This document shows, piece after piece, positions 7,155 through 50,034 of a stretch of 64,000 nucleotides of DNA. Position numbers and translations under genes: made by a program. This stretch comes from Harmothoe impar. Lineage: Eukaryota; Annelida; Polychaeta; Phyllodocida; Polynoidae. The stretch lies in contig OX381715.1 in the NCBI GenBank assembly GCA_947462335.1, positions 39,222,650 to 39,286,649 on the forward strand, read 5' to 3'. Position 1 is the stretch's first letter, and each line of letters starts with the position of its first letter. The notes under the pieces are model-generated. The model was not told where the DNA came from. It did not search any database and saw nothing but the letters and a program-made list of their open reading frames with translations.

Positions 7155-7735
7155 GATAGGTCTATGTGTTCTCCTTCTCCCCCTCCCTCCCCCCCTCCCT
7201 CCATTCTCCTTTCTCTCTCTCTCCTCCTTCCCTCTCCCTTTCTCCCCTCCCTTCCTTCCCTTCCCTTTCCTTCCCTTCTTCTCCCTCCCTTCTCCCTTCC
7301 TCCTCTTTCCCCTTTCCTCTCTCTTTCTCCCTCCCTTCTCTCCCTCCCTCCCCCTCCCTCCCTCCCTCCCTCCCTCCCTCCCTCCCTCCCTTCTGCTTCT
7401 CTCCCTCCCTTCTCCCTCCCTTCTCCCTCCCTCCTCTCTCCCCCTCCCTCTCCCCCTTCTCCCTCCCTCTTCTCCCTCCCTCTTCTCCTCCCTCCCTTCT
7501 CCCTCCCTTCTTTCTCCCCCTCTACCCTTCCCTCCCTTCTCCCTCTCTCCCTCCCTTCTCCCTCTCTCTCCCTCCCTCCTCTCCCCCCTCCCTCTCCACT
7601 TCCCTCCCCCCTTCCTCTCTCCCTCCATCCCCTTCTTCTCTCCCTTCTTTTTGCCCTCCTTCTCTTCTTTCCTCTTCCTTCCACCTCCCTCCCTTCCTTC
7701 CTTCCTTCCTCCCTCCCTAGCTTTTTTCTTGTGCC
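7155..7735 (+). repeat. 580-bp homopyrimidine (CCCT/CCTT) tract
   Basis: The plus strand is almost uninterrupted C and T for about 580 bases, in changing (CCCT)n, (CCCTT)n and (TCTC)n registers. Long open frames exist here on both strands, but they only reflect the absence of A/G stop contexts and encode Ser/Pro/Leu or Arg/Glu/Gly low-complexity runs. Such a tract can form intramolecular triplex (H-DNA) and is prone to length change. Confidence 0.95.
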
Positions 7736-7960: not shown

Positions 7961-8176
7961 GCGTCCATTGAAGAGTAGACGCACACCGCGAACCGTCCAG
8001 GATTATCCAACCCACAGAGGTGATTAAAAGCTCTATTAACCTCCAGTTTTCCATGAAAGCTGTGTAAAGGTATAGAGACACGAGGGTTTGGATCAGATAT
8101 TGTTAATAAGACATATATCAGACCTTTTGGACGAAACATAGCTGACCACCGGTGTGGGACTGACCAACAACACAGA

Positions 8177-9439
8177 ATGGCGGAAGCAGTAGACCGAGAC
8201 GAGGTGGACACGCTGGTCAACGATCTCAAGAACGCCAAGGTGCTGCGTAACACAGACAACTTAGGTGGTAAGGTTGGACTGGCCTTAAACTACATTCTAA
8301 AGGAATATGATAGCACACACCAATCGCTGGTATTTGCCCATAATGAGATCCGGGATATCAAAAAGGACAAATGCAAGCTTGAAGGGGAGGTGACTCAGCT
8401 GAAGGCCGCCATGGTTCGCACACAGCGTCAGGTGAGGGTCAATACCTTAGACATTGAAGAGTTGGGAGTATCTCTGGCTGTACAAGACCATGCAGCACGC
8501 AGAAAGAATATTATTATTGAAGGTCTTCCCTTTGTAGCAAAAGAAAAAACTGATGAAATATCCTTCAGCCTTCTAAAAAAGATAGATGATGAGCTAGACA
8601 TCTACGAACTGGACTACGCATGCCGACAGGGTCCACCAAACACAACAAAGAGACCTATGGTAGTAGTGCTTACAAAGGCCGCAACACGAGACAGAATAAT
8701 GTCCAAAAAAAGCTGCCTAAATACATCCAGAGACCACAAGAACGTCTTCGTCAGTGAGGATTCAAACCCGGTAATTAGGAGGCAGAAGGCTGAGGTATCC
8801 ACAGTGGCAAGACTGGCACATGAGGCCAACATAGACGCAAAGCCAAGGGGGCGTGGCATTCTCTACAATGCGAAATACTACCCCCATAGCAACATGTCGA
8901 CCCTCCCGGACAACATCCAACTGTCCAATGCTCGCACAGTGGTCACGGATCACTATGTGGCTTATAACTCTCATCTGGCTCCCCTGAGCAATTTTTATCC
9001 GTGCAGAATTGAATGTGATGGCTACATATACAGCTCGGTAGAGCAGGGGCTATCACATAAAAAAGCACTCTTTGCAAAGGATGATGTCAAGGCAAGAGAA
9101 ATCATGGACTCATTTACAGCACTGAGGGCTATGACGCTAGCAAAAGGAATAGACTGTCCAGAGTGGCGAAACCACGATGAGAGGTATCTGAAAGAGCTGA
9201 ACATCCTTAAGTACACGCAGGATAAGGACCTAAAGGATATACTACAATCAACACAGTCTCGTCTTCTTCTTGAGACGACAGGATCAAGGCACTGGGGTAT
9301 AGGCGCGGGAATAGGGAGTAAGACACTGCAAAAAGGCACCTGGAAGGGACGAAACAGGGGGGGGTATATCCTTATGGAGGTTAGGAAAGAACTATGTGGT
9401 TTTGACAACCCCTCAGCAAATACCAACCCCCGCCTGTAG
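8177..9439 (+). CDS. LINE ORF1 protein: coiled coil, RRM-like and NADAR domains
   Basis: This 420-residue frame is intact from ATG (good context, AGAATGG) to TAG. Residues about 50-105 are charged and heptad-like, suggesting a coiled coil. Residues about 109-195, starting RKNIIIEGLP, match the RRM-like nucleic-acid-binding region of L1-type ORF1 proteins, and 195-236 (RRQKAEV...RGRGILYNAKYY) resembles the following C-terminal domain. Residues about 258-407 look like a NADAR (YbiA-like) domain: LSNFYP at 270-275, a conserved SSVEQ with E289, WGIG at 373-376 and the closing GRNRGGYILMEVR at 391-403. ORF1 proteins package LINE RNA. NADAR proteins act on ADP-ribose derivatives, and some remove ADP-ribose from guanine. 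The combined role is unknown. ORF1 is undamaged although ORF2 is ruined. Domain calls are by eye. Confidence 0.88.
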   Translation: MAEAVDRDEVDTLVNDLKNAKVLRNTDNLGGKVGLALNYILKEYDSTHQSLVFAHNEIRDIKKDKCKLEGEVTQLKAAMVRTQRQVRVNTLDIEELGVSLAVQDHAARRKNIIIEGLPFVAKEKTDEISFSLLKKIDDELDIYELDYACRQGPPNTTKRPMVVVLTKAATRDRIMSKKSCLNTSRDHKNVFVSEDSNPVIRRQKAEVSTVARLAHEANIDAKPRGRGILYNAKYYPHSNMSTLPDNIQLSNARTVVTDHYVAYNSHLAPLSNFYPCRIECDGYIYSSVEQGLSHKKALFAKDDVKAREIMDSFTALRAMTLAKGIDCPEWRNHDERYLKELNILKYTQDKDLKDILQSTQSRLLLETTGSRHWGIGAGIGSKTLQKGTWKGRNRGGYILMEVRKELCGFDNPSANTNPRL

Positions 9440-9540
9440 CAACAACAGCTGCAGCAACCCCAGCTGTAGCAACACCAGCAGCAACGACAGCAGTAAGCAC
9501 AACACCAACAACAACAACAACAACAACAACCGTTAAGACA
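9440..9540 (+). repeat. CAA/CAG-rich linker between ORF1 and ORF2
   Basis: The segment is mostly CAA, CAG and CAC codons in the frame shared by ORF1 and ORF2. It holds two more in-frame stops (TAG 9467-9469 and TAA 9494-9496) besides the ORF1 stop (TAG 9437-9439). In another frame it reads as Thr/Ala/Val-rich sequence. The antisense gives a long cysteine-rich open frame (9022-9648), which is an artefact of GTT/GCT/TTG complements. Confidence 0.75.
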
Positions 9541-10711
9541 GCGCCAACAGCAATGGTACAAGGCGAACAAAAATACATGTATTAATGCCCGCTCAGCATA
9601 CCCAAAGAGAGTTAACATTAAAAACTTTATATTACATACTGATGTCATGGGTGTCTGTGAATCTTGGTTGAATCCTACAATAACTGATACAATGATGCAT
9701 TTGGATGGATATCAATTTATAAGGCTGGATAGGTATCCCATACTCGACAAAACAGCTGGAGGTTTGATGATTTATATGCGTGATACTTATACTGCAGTTA
9801 TGAATCTAGTTGTATACATGTTAGTTATGAGATCCTGTGTGTAGATATAGAAATTGGGAAAATTAAATATAAAATATATGTTTGCTACCGTCCTCCTAAG
9901 AGGGACAAGGAGAGCATGCAATTATTATATAAAAAACTAAGTGTACTTCTCAAGGGGGTTACCAAAAATAGAAAAATAATCATTATGGGCGATTTTAATG
10001 TAGACCTGCTCACACGCAAAGACATTGAAGATTCGGACGTTGATAATTTTTGTACAAATAATGACATGTGTCAGTTGATAAATGAAATAACACGCCCTAA
10101 GTCTGGCTCCCTATTGGATCATATGTATATTAATGACAGAATACATAACGTATGTGAATTTGGCACTATTGATTATCACATAGCTGACCACACTCCTATT
10201 TTCTTATTAGTTAAATGCGAACGCACTAAGATTAAAAAGAAGGTTATCAAGGCACGCTCGTATAAAAAATATGATTTGTTAAGATTTAAAAACATGCTTT
10301 TAGAAATAAAATGGGATGACATAGTGTCTATACAAGATCCAAATTTAATGTGGGATAAAATAATTGGGGTCATAAGAGCATGCCTTGATGCAATTTGTCC
10401 CATTAGGACGTTGGTCCTACCGGTACGTACACCTGAATGGCTCACGCCAGATATTGTTAATGCTATGCAGTATAGAGACGCTCTGTACTCTGACGCAAGG
10501 CAATCTAATGATATAGATGACTGGAGAATAGCTGATTTTCACCGGAACAGGGTGGAATCTCTAATATTTTATAGCCGTAAAGAGAAAATTGATACATTAC
10601 TAATACATAGAAAAGACGCTCCTGTGAAATTTTGGCAAGGAATACGAAAATTACTACCGTTTAAACAAAATCCACCTTTTTGAAATTGAGAAATAATATT
10701 ACTAAAGAAAT

Positions 10712-11323
10712 GTGGATCAACAAGGGAAAAGGGACCTCCGCGGGGGATTTTTAGTACCAACTTTGGCCACCAGGGGGCTCCACATAGCCGAAAAGGACCA
10801 AGATATAGCAAAAACTTATCTATACTACTTTTTTATGTAGAATATGATAGGCCACATTAGAAGATTCCATTTTTGGTGAAAACCTTCCATATTTGGAATG
10901 GAAAAGAACGTTTTTGGGCCTAAATTGGTGTTTTCGCACATGTTGGTTGCCATGGAAACATGATTTTCATTCTAAATCGAAAATTTTAAAAAATTGAATG
11001 AAAGAAGGCCCCAAAACGATTTCTATGCTGAAAACAGAATGTAAATGGCATTTTTAGATCAAAAGCTGTGGCCAATTGTTTGAAAAAGTTTGGATATTTG
11101 GTAATTAGCATAATTATGCTAATTAGATAGGAATATCTCTAAAACAAAGGAAGATAGAGCTTATTGGCATTTATGATTGGACAGTGACCACACATATTCA
11201 GAGAGCCAGTACTCAAAAACTAGAAGTGGTACCTGCTTATAAAAGATATCACTGGAAAGCTGATGACATCAATTTTATTATTAAGTTTTTACCTTGGAGG
11301 ACCCTTTTCCCTCGACTGTCCAC
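10712..11323. mobile_element. 612-bp non-autonomous DNA element inserted in LINE ORF2
   Basis: It is bounded by the direct repeats AAAT (10708-10711 and 11324-11327). Its ends are inverted: GTGGA then AGGGAAAAGGG on the left, and CCCTTTTCCCT then TCCAC on the right. Reading across without the element and one AAAT copy rejoins the LINE codons as ITKEM-IPLNECSG, so the boundaries are exact. Two relatives lie at about 50035-50590 and 51813-52418; all three share GCCACCAGGGGGCYCCAC near the left end and TTGCCATGGAAAC inside. There is no coding capacity. The superfamily is not determined. Confidence 0.88.
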
Positions 11324-11747
11324 AAATGATTCCACTCAATGAATGTTCAGGTTATATCAACTCTTTCTTTGCTACTGTAGGTTCAGACCTAGCTGGTTTA
11401 TTACCACCGATTGACGCTGAGCAAAACTATACACCGCCAGTAAATGTACCCGTTCACAGGACGTGTCTTATGCAGCCTGTTGGTTATTTACACATTATTA
11501 AAGTAATTAAAAAGATTAAAGTGAATAAGCCCTCAAGCATAAAACATATTAAATCTTGTATACTTAAGGATGCCTTCCTGATTATTCCAGATGTTGTCAT
11601 GTGCCTGTTTAATATATGTCTGGAACATAGCATATTTCCTACCGTATGGAAGACTGCTACTGTGGTCCCTATACCAAAGAAAAGTAATTCATTGGATGTA
11701 AGCGACCTGCGCCCCATAAGTTTGTTACCCTTGCCAGGAAGATGTTA

Positions 11748-12068
11748 GGGAGTGGTCATTTTTTAACAACAGGGGGGGGTTGGTGGATTTGGGGGGGGGA
11801 CCAAAAAAATTTGGACCCCTTGAAGGGGGGGGACCAAAAAAATTTGGACTCCTCTTGTGGGGGGGACCAAAAAAATTGCACCCCTTTTTAGCGAAAAAGC
11901 CCGCGCGTTACTATAGCTCAAAAGGGTCGGCCGCGCTCAATTTCAACTTGTCTGAGGGGGGGGACCAAAAAAATTTCGACCCCTCCCACGGGGGGGACCA
12001 AAAAAATTACGACCCGCTCACGCGAAAATCCACCGACCCCCCCCTGTTGTTAAAAAATGACCACTCCC
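11748..12068. mobile_element. PIF/Harbinger-like MITE, 321 bp
   Basis: Terminal inverted repeats begin GGGAGTGGTCATTTTTTAAC and run about 33 bases perfectly, with only one mismatch in 39. The element is flanked by TTA (11745-11747 and 12069-12071). A TWA target duplication with G-rich termini is the PIF/Harbinger pattern. The interior holds five or so spaced copies of GGGGGACCAAAAAAATT with variable linkers. It interrupts the reverse transcriptase between the DLRPISLLP and HGYRAGHST motifs, next to a one-base deletion. A partial relative may lie at 7756-7900. Confidence 0.85.
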
Positions 12069-13267
12069 TTAGAGAGGGTTATATGTACACAACTGCAAGC
12101 ATATATGAGCGAACATAAACTTTTAACACCGTTTCAACATGGATACCGAGCTGGCCACTCTACTATTTCGGCTATCACCTCACATCTTAATAATATTATA
12201 ATAAATACAATTAATAACAAGCCTACCCTATCCCTATATTTAGATTACAAGAAGGCCTTTGACACTGTTTCACACTTAATTATGTTAAAACAACTATCTG
12301 GTTTTGGACTTAGCGAAAAAACTTGCAGTTGGTTCAATAGCTACCTTTCTAACAGACGACAATGTACTATAGCTAATGATTGCTTATCAAGCCTTAAGGA
12401 GGTAGTATATGGCGTCCCCCAGGGGTCTGTATTAGGCCCTGTTCTTTTTTCCATATATATAAATTCTCTTCCTGACATAGGAAACTTTGATATTTGTCTA
12501 TACGCAGATGATGCTGTTATTTCTGTACAAGACCCAGCCATGATGCAAACCTGCCTAGATAAGCTAGGATTGTGGTGTAAGCAGAATAGCCTAACTGTTA
12601 ATGAAAAAAAGACAAAGTGGATGTTTTATAACAATGTTCTTAATGTTAACCCTGTCTTAAAACTAAATAATGTTGTACTAGAGAGAGTTCAAACCTTTCA
12701 ATACCTGGGACTAACATTAGACCCTGATCTGAAATTTGTAACACATCGTACTAATGTTGTATCTAATATAAGAAACAAGATATGTCAGTTACATAAGGTA
12801 ATTATAAGAGATCATACAGATGAGGACACCTCTCTCTCATCTTCATATGGGATAGGGAAAATAAAGGGGAAACTTTGGAATTGCAGCGATTGCAAAATAA
12901 AGGGTTAAGGGTTGTTTATAAGGTCAAGCTAGAAAAAGACCCTGTGTTAAATACTGAACAGTTACATGTTAAAAGTATGTGTTGTAAACTAATGGAGAGA
13001 CGTGATAGGCATTTATTGTATTATGCCTTCTCATTAGCTAAAAAGGAGGAGTATGTAGACAATAGAAATATCCCTACACGTAGGCACCGTGGAAAGAGAT
13101 TGTTAGTTCCACACACATTAAAAACAATGGTGCTTAGGAGTTGCCTGTACAGGGCCACCATGCGCTGGAATGATTTAAAACCTGATTATACTTTATTCGA
13201 CTCCCTTTGGAAGTTCAAAATGGCCATCAAAAAGGACTATCCACACTGTTTCATGAATGTACCGTAA

Positions 13268-49037: not shown

Positions 49038-49041
49038 CACT

Positions 49042-49261
49042 TGTAGGGGTCGGATTCCCCGTACCCTGGTGGAGAGCCCGAAGGGGTGAAACACCTGGGT
49101 AATCCTCCCCCTCTGTACCATACCGATCCAGTAACGTAGGGAGCGGAGAACAGTCAGACACGGGTTGGTAGTGTAACGGTTAGCACGCTTGTCACTGGTG
49201 CGAGAGGTCTGTGGTTCGATTCCCGGCCGATCCAATGACTAAGTTTTCCGCGACCTCTACA
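49042..49261 (+). repeat. 5' LTR
   Basis: The LTR has TG...CA termini that are themselves inverted over about ten bases (TGTAGGGGTC / GACCTCTACA, one mismatch). It contains the tRNA-like unit in its 3' half. No TATA box is evident. Confidence 0.92.
49162..49234 (+). ncRNA. tRNA-like Pol III unit inside the 5' LTR
   Basis: The acceptor stem GGGTTGG (49162-49168) pairs fully, with wobbles, to CCGATCC (49227-49233), and discriminator A follows. A D-arm GTGT/GCAC encloses AACGGTTA. An anticodon arm CTTGT/GCGAG encloses a 7-base loop that lacks the usual U33. The T-loop TTCGATT sits on a weak stem. A-box-like TAGTGTAACGGTTAGCA and B-box GGTTCGATTCC are present. TTTT at 49244-49247, ten bases after the discriminator, would end Pol III transcription. 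The irregular anticodon and T-stem make a translating tRNA unlikely. The fold is read by eye. Confidence 0.8.
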
Positions 49262-49262
49262 C

Positions 49263-49276
49263 TGGTGGATCGGCCG
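49263..49276 (+). other. Primer-binding site matching the element's own tRNA-like 3' end
   Basis: TGGTGGATCGGCCG lies one base after the left LTR. It is the exact reverse complement, over 14 bases, of the tRNA-like 3' end CGGCCGATCCA with CCA added. Position and TGG start are those of LTR-retrotransposon primer-binding sites. Confidence 0.88.
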
Positions 49277-49675
49277 CGATGAATCGGGTAGTACGTTGAC
49301 TGTGGACGGTAGGAGCATTCCAGCTTGCTGGGGATTGGCCACCTGCTGGCGGTTGGTAGTTGGAGGAGCAGGTTGGGAAGTGTTGGTCCCCAGTACGGGC
49401 AGTTGGAGTTCAGCATGGAGTTCAGTCAACAAATTGGCTGAATCGGTATGGTGTAGAAAGCTTCCATCACTGGGAAGTCAGGGTATCTCAACGACTGCTT
49501 GATAAAGCCCCATTGGGACCTTCGGTCTCCAGTGGGTGAGAATGCCTGGTGCTAGGTGCCTCTATACTCCGGGGGCTGGGACTCTCTGTAACTGCTTGAT
49601 AAAGCCCCTTCTAGGAGGGAGAGAAAGCCCAGGGTTGGTATACCCCCGGAAAATCCGAATCTAGAGGACATGATG

Positions 49676-49692
49676 GAAGCTGATGGGGGTAG
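49676..49692 (+). other. Polypurine-like tract before 3' LTR
   Basis: GAAGCTGATGGGGGTAG precedes the 3' LTR. It is a short, imperfect purine-rich tract with a G5 core, as expected for plus-strand priming. Confidence 0.55.
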
Positions 49693-49912
49693 TGTAGGGG
49701 TCGGATTCCCCGTACCCTGGTGGAGAGCCCGAAGGGGTGAAACACCTGGGTAATCCTCCCCCTCTGTACCATACCGATCCAGTAACGTAGGGAGCGGAGA
49801 ACAGTCAGACACGGGTTGGTAGTGTAACGGTTAGCACGCTTGTCACCGGTGCGAGAGGTCTGTGGTTCGATTCCCGGCCGATCCAATGACTAAGTTTTCC
49901 GCGACCTCTACA
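49693..49912 (+). repeat. 3' LTR
   Basis: It is identical to the 5' LTR except for one T-to-C difference in the anticodon-loop region of the tRNA-like unit (CACTGG versus CACCGG). Confidence 0.92.
49813..49885 (+). ncRNA. tRNA-like Pol III unit inside the 3' LTR
   Basis: It has the same structure as the unit at 49162-49234, with TTTT at 49895-49898. The single difference from the first copy lies in the anticodon loop, outside the acceptor end used for priming. Confidence 0.8.
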
Positions 49913-50034
49913 CACTTCATGATAACTGCATTCAGTATCTCTCATACATTCTTATTCTACAATGTCTTAAGAGTTTGTGAGGCTTTATTTGACTCGGAAA
50001 AGGGTTGGTGGAATACATTGTGGGAGGTCAAGCA

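Follow-up and report, generated by a model that had tools for sequence, protein, structure and literature searches.

As a rule, reverse transcription of LTR elements and retroviruses starts from a tRNA taken from the host. Tf1 folds its own genomic RNA so that the 5' end lies on the primer-binding site (PBS), and cuts it. Tf1-type LTR elements have been named as self-priming (PMC6934838). Elements with a tRNA-like sequence in their LTRs have been surveyed as Helenus (TRIMp3; Kojima 2024, PMC10886601). In section 3.6 of that survey it was asked whether the LTR sequence is itself the primer, and the answer was no: according to the available sections, complementarity between the tRNA-like sequence of the LTR and the PBS was sought and none was found, and in animal Helenus families the PBS was found to fit host tRNAs. 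The placing of a tRNA in the LTR of an animal element has thus been known since 2024, and the preliminary description of the locus studied here, which knew of no animal element of such a design, was too broad on this point. A fit between the LTR-borne sequence and the PBS of the same element is not described in those sections, and this part of the claim stood.

In this study we analysed an element of the polychaete Harmothoe impar, which by its anatomy is a Helenus-type TRIM according to the published description, as far as that was available (PMC10886601). From its sequence we propose that the tRNA-like gene in the LTR supplies the element's own primer for reverse transcription in at least some events, a tentative reading that falls just short of an even chance.

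The element occupies positions 49042-49912 of the window, the whole stretch of 64,000 nucleotides that was analysed (Table 1). Its length of 871 bp lies below the 1000 bp of TRIMs and its direct LTRs of 220 bp lie within the expected range of about 100-250 bp; a PBS follows the 5' LTR and a polypurine tract precedes the 3' LTR, as in TRIMs. The only difference between the two LTRs was a T/C at LTR position 155. Judged on ORF lengths the element had no coding capacity, as is typical for TRIMs. The list of stop-to-stop ORFs held none of at least 90 aa on the sense strand of the internal region. Three ORFs of at least 90 aa lay within the element (92-107 aa), all on the minus strand, and a further minus-strand ORF of 95 aa crossed its left edge. 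A protein search with the antisense ORFs gave a single match (P0121, 83% identity over 55% of the query, on a 636-base contig). Among viral contigs an LTR 22-mer had 0 matches, and the 14-mer was present in at least 120 stretches. An inverted repeat of 20 nt, 85% complementary, was seen between 49112-49131 in the LTR and 49438-49457 in the internal region, and its LTR arm contains a second CCGATCCA.

Table 1. Positions of the features of the element and its flanks, numbered from the first base of the window.
Feature	Position	Strand	Remarks
Target-site duplication CACT, 5' copy	49038..49041	.	4-bp flank repeat
5' LTR	49042..49261	+	220 bp, TG...CA
tRNA-like unit, 5' LTR	49162..49234	+	Rfam RF00005, 39.7 bits
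Pol III A box TAGTGTAACGG	49169..49179	+	consensus match
Pol III B box GTTCGATTC	49214..49222	+	consensus match
Unit 3' end, 11 nt, complementary to PBS bases 4-14	49224..49234	+	
TTTT, Pol III terminator-like	49244..49247	+	9 nt past unit
Internal region	49262..49692	+	431 bp, counting spacer (1 nt) and PBS
Primer-binding site (PBS) TGGTGGATCGGCCG	49263..49276	+	TGG start, 1 nt past 5' LTR
Polypurine-tract-like GGGGGTAG	49685..49692	+	adjoins 3' LTR upstream; read from sequence
3' LTR	49693..49912	+	220 bp, TG...CA; single-base difference from 5' LTR
tRNA-like unit, 3' LTR	49813..49885	+	Rfam RF00005, 39.4 bits
Target-site duplication CACT, 3' copy	49913..49916	.	4-bp flank repeat

Elsewhere in the window, remains of a non-LTR retrotransposon were found at 8057-12908 in several frames, with matches to an endonuclease (PF14529) and a reverse transcriptase (PF00078). 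The ORF upstream of these remains carries a NADAR domain (PF08719, 5e-23). A long CCCT-rich low-complexity tract lies at 7171-7717.

The preliminary description placed a tRNA-like unit inside each LTR. Both units scored well above the RF00005 gathering score of 29, and at Rfam gathering scores they were the only two matches in the whole window, both to tRNA. At E up to 1 the 5' LTR matched only tRNA, and other RNA families were rejected. ARAGORN called no tRNA at the element's units. In the alignment of the 5' LTR unit to RF00005 no non-standard pairs were seen; the T stem has an extra U, a bulge that may hinder RNase Z. The acceptor stem is paired in 7/7 positions with two G-U pairs, among them G3-U70, and the last base is A73. 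We take G3-U70 together with A73 to be an alanine tRNA signature. The anticodon loop, as read by eye, is without U33, and from its sequence the unit is therefore unlikely to take part in decoding. The cloverleaf had a predicted energy of -17.5 kcal/mol, compared with -23.6 and -22.7 kcal/mol for the best other folds, and the folding energy of the units was no better than that of shuffled sequences. To look for selection on the unit, variants per site were compared: the unit had 0.075, the LTR's first 120 bp had 0.100 and the rest of the internal region had 0.118, values that are based on few variants. The only other TTTT of the element starts at 49895, and both runs lie after tRNA-like units.

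The PBS was the exact reverse complement (14/14) of the unit's final 11 bases with CCA added, just as the preliminary description had reported for this copy, and the pairing between unit and PBS ended at base 15. Its further statement, that the CCA matching the TGG is not encoded, was also correct, as the LTR reads ATG beyond the unit's terminal A. The fit is therefore to a processed tRNA-like RNA. The chance of 11 encoded bases matching at a fixed place is 4^-11, about 2.4e-7, and with up to two mismatches the PBS 14-mer occurred once in the window, compared with a mean of 0.10 in shuffled sequences. We concluded that a chance fit of the PBS to the unit could be ruled out.

Copies of the element were collected from the host assembly (1.51 Gb, 736 contigs). 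There were 2250 first-look candidates, 40 of which were scored, and 42 places were listed, all at 99-100% identity to the query. We read 39 loci including the window's own, with 42 PBSs and 82 units. These PBSs come from the best-scoring matches to a query with G at PBS position 10 and are not a random sample, so G may be over-represented. The PBS read TGGTGGATCTGCCG in 33 cases, TGGTGGATCGGCCG (the window type) in 8 and TGATGGATCTGCCG in 1. Position 10 of the PBS, which is base 49272 or element position 231, was T in 34/42 and G in 8/42, and apart from this position the PBS varied in one copy only (A at position 3; n=42). The window PBS is thus not the product of an odd single copy or a sequencing error, the G type being present in 8/42. 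The 3' end of the unit was CGGCCGATCCA in 79 of the 82 units, CGGCCGATCTA in 2 and CGGCCAATCCA in 1. T at position 10 is a mismatch to this usual unit, and most copies therefore mismatch once and have a 13/14 fit. T-type PBSs were also found in two older copies, L193 with the unit ends CAGATCCA and CTGATCCA, and L192 with CCGATCCA and CAGATCCA.

Comparisons between copies were done with 38 copies, omitting the tandem locus L152 (C4:81743843-81749549). Within the 5.7 kb of this locus, tandem copies that share LTRs have 6 LTRs and 4 PBSs between them, with neighbouring places starting 651 bp apart. Both LTRs were identical in 25/38 copies and differed by 4 bases at most, which marks the copies read as very young. 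An exact 4-bp target duplication, which fits the integrase type expected of a TRIM, was found in 30/38 copies. The remaining 8/38 (L139, L145, L147, L150, L151, L153, L154 and L158) had no exact 4-bp duplication; they share its first 2 bp, and their left flank ends in AG. AG also directly precedes the 3' LTR, and these flanks look as if 2 nt of an unprocessed LTR end had been kept where two duplicated target bases would otherwise stand. AG also ends the left flank in 6/30 copies with exact duplication, and a target preference may instead be the cause.

Of the 38 copies, 30 had T and 8 had G at position 10. G and T were mixed in all five marker groups examined (G/T counts: 262C 3/9, 526A 1/5, 253T 1/3, 601A 1/4, 155T 1/3). 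A fully resolved tree built without position 10 required 8 changes at this position, compared with a mean of 7.4 for shuffled labels, and five other markers needed 1-2 changes on the same tree. With zero-length nodes left open the minimum was 5 changes, and with only nodes of support of at least 0.9 it was 2; the tree of the 38 copies is poorly resolved, and the independent changes are possibly as few as 2. The nearest relatives of every G copy (8/8) included a T copy, and the G copies were not clearly founders in this sample. We concluded that G/T at position 10 does not track ancestry among the 38 copies. The sequences suggest that a single PBS base has switched several times to match the LTR unit. 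PBS positions 15-18 were CGAT except in two T-type copies altered at position 16, and the unit's GGAA was never seen there in the copies, so any copying ends before the usual 18 nt.

A similar pattern is described for HIV/SIV, where a daughter inherits the PBS of the template or the sequence of the primer, and where a PBS polymorphism that appears and disappears reports a second tRNA primer (PMC4549124, PMC6450007). By analogy the pattern at position 10 resembles the HIV footprint of a second primer, and applied to the present element this argument would call for a primer with C67 and C71. The only source of such a sequence found was the LTR unit, the few host tRNAs recovered having none.

The unit need not be the second primer, since a host tRNA ending in CGGCCGATCCA would explain the switching base equally well; such a tRNA would overwrite the PBS, and the LTR unit would be a related Pol III promoter only. 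Host priming is the rule in Helenus families (PMC10886601, section 3.6), and an unusual host tRNA-Ala, with the G3-U70 and A73 of the unit, could share the CGGCCGATCCA end. This end was absent among the host tRNAs recovered, namely Gly, Asp, Arg, Asn and a variant with a Gln anticodon, which are a small part of the set. Neither did any of 19 human tRNAs or the two Gly tRNAs quoted in PMC6587125 fit the PBS in 14/14 positions. We regard a host tRNA as second primer as unlikely. For the majority PBS, a standard-T-loop tRNA with an exact fit must match TTCRANNNNCGGCAGATCCA; the genome search gave four matches, all in LTR copies, and no other such tRNA gene. Host tRNA genes (Gly, Arg and Asp) form a large tandem array from C11:40977232 onward, in which many Gly places are 1134 bp apart. 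The Gln variant consists of four ARAGORN calls of a TTG anticodon in otherwise tRNA-Arg(TCG) sequence (L160-L189), which sit in overlapping loci and possibly represent fewer than four genes.

Another explanation needs no second primer: the two PBS types could be old alleles of no functional meaning, redistributed among copies by template switching when RNAs were packaged together. Recombination may occur, as mixed haplotypes at 262-452 were found in 4/38 copies, and just 2 changes at position 10 are needed when the tree is restricted to its best-supported part. Against this, markers 190 bp apart were linked (p 1e-7, 38 copies), yet position 10 was not associated with a marker only 31 bp away, G being present in 3/12 carriers and 5/26 non-carriers of its C allele (Fisher p 0.69). 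In addition, position 10 alone separates L133 and L145, with G, from L139 and L144, with T; these four copies do not differ at any of the remaining 870 sites. Shuffling of old alleles is therefore improbable.

The same 11 bases of the unit also form a hairpin with the PBS within the element. Together with the sequence between them, the unit's 3' end and the PBS make up 53 nt, which fold into it with a predicted -20.0 kcal/mol with G and -13.8 kcal/mol with T at position 10, so that the complementarity might instead serve the genomic RNA in packaging, dimerisation or Tf1-like self-priming, and the switch might be repair of an inverted repeat. Against a hairpin, the fit extends into the TGG, the complement of CCA, at the place where a PBS should start. 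Repair should also shift the LTR unit toward the PBS, and this was seen in 0/82 units of young copies, by which we rejected it as the main cause of the switching base; the objection is weakened by four units elsewhere in the genome that do carry the PBS-fitting base. We consider the hairpin explanation distinctly improbable.

Priming by the abundant host tRNA-Gly(GCC), with a PBS that tolerates one or two mismatches, is very improbable, because this tRNA, although its 3' end GGTTCGANTCCCGGCCRATGCA had 149 exact genome matches and it fits the window PBS in 13/14 positions, fits the majority PBS in just 12/14 and has C67 but G71, so that as donor of the G type it would leave C at PBS position 6; this position precedes position 10 in copying and was C in 0/42. 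The 100 of these matches that were listed all read CCGATGCA, and ARAGORN called tRNA-Gly(gcc) in 15/15 loci scanned out of 30 fetched. A vector tRNA with the same sequence is presumably the fly Gly gene. It is one of two tRNAs in a vector quoted in PMC6587125.

If the LTR unit is the second primer, the following chain of events is the most likely, although its chance, too, stays slightly below even. Pol III would transcribe the LTR unit into a short RNA ending at the TTTT, which would be trimmed by RNase P and RNase Z and then receive CCA. The CCA-tailed RNA would prime on the PBS of the genomic RNA, with enzymes borrowed from an autonomous LTR element. During plus-strand synthesis the 3' end of the primer would be copied into the PBS of some daughters. 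The PBS would thereby follow the gene, and every insertion would be a primer gene, solo LTRs included. With a leaky TTTT a single Pol III promoter could give both the short primer RNA and a read-through genomic RNA. As TTTT runs occur only after the two units, read-through from the 5' LTR would end past the 3' unit.

Several observations agree with the own-primer idea of the preliminary description, namely the exact fit including CCA, the A box, the B box, the TTTT, the absence outside LTR copies of a standard-T-loop tRNA gene that exactly fits the majority PBS, and the switching of the PBS base; the idea is thus supported in part. Others do not: the PBS mismatches the usual unit in 34/42 cases, the lowest-energy fold is not the cloverleaf and positions 15-18 are unchanged. 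The T majority, though 79/82 units fit G, speaks against the unit as primer. Were the unit the primer in every copy, with its sequence passed on in half of the cases, about half of the copies should have G, compared with the 8/38 observed. It is possible that few cycles have passed since the unit gained its present form, that the more stable predicted hairpin hides the PBS in G copies, or that some further primer takes part. For Ty1 the primer tRNA was reported as not inherited (Lauermann and Boeke 1994, cited in PMC5371799).

Priming by the LTR unit, if true, would mean independence from the host for the primer and a way of tying a PBS firmly to a tRNA gene that has been captured. It would also give a reason besides promoter function for keeping tRNA genes in LTRs.

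Several known systems share features with the element. To our knowledge the 5S RNA of Cassandra is not the primer. Cassandra is a plant TRIM that likewise has a Pol III-type gene inside the LTR (PMC10886601); its LTR holds a 5S rRNA, whereas the LTR of the present element holds a tRNA-like unit and gave no 5S rRNA match, only tRNA at E up to 1, by which Cassandra was rejected. A retrozyme was rejected because no hammerhead ribozyme was found at gathering scores in the whole window. A tRNA SINE has no LTRs and is target-primed, and was rejected on the LTRs, PBS and 4-bp duplication of the element. The biv-TRIM of bivalves is an animal TRIM as well, in which a clear PBS was not identifiable; a tRNA unit in its terminal repeats is not mentioned in the available part of the description (PMC6934838). 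A search of the open-access literature, as far as its texts were available, gave no report of an LTR-encoded tRNA that fits its own PBS.

As in the PBS-Lys5 polymorphism of HIV/SIV (PMC4549124, PMC6450007), a single PBS base comes and goes in the element, as would be expected of two primers with different 3' ends; there both primers are host tRNAs, whereas the candidate for second primer in the present family is a product of the element itself. With Tf1-type elements the reading proposed here would share a primer that comes from the element and not from the host. Tf1 primes with its genomic RNA's own 5' end, whereas in the present element CCA is part of the fit, a sign of a processed tRNA-like end. 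The closest likeness is to Helenus (PMC10886601): both are TRIMs of less than 1000 bp with a tRNA-like sequence, including A and B box, in both LTRs, and the element has in common with animal Helenus families the PBS, the polypurine tract and the 4-bp target duplication. The copies of the element look as if they carry a record of primer use in their PBS, and at the level of sequence the family is a counter-example to the conclusion of the Helenus survey. The general property given there, according to the available sections, is a PBS that fits host tRNAs and not the LTR unit, whereas the PBS of the present element fits its own LTR unit, in 14/14 positions in the window copy and in 13/14 in most other copies.
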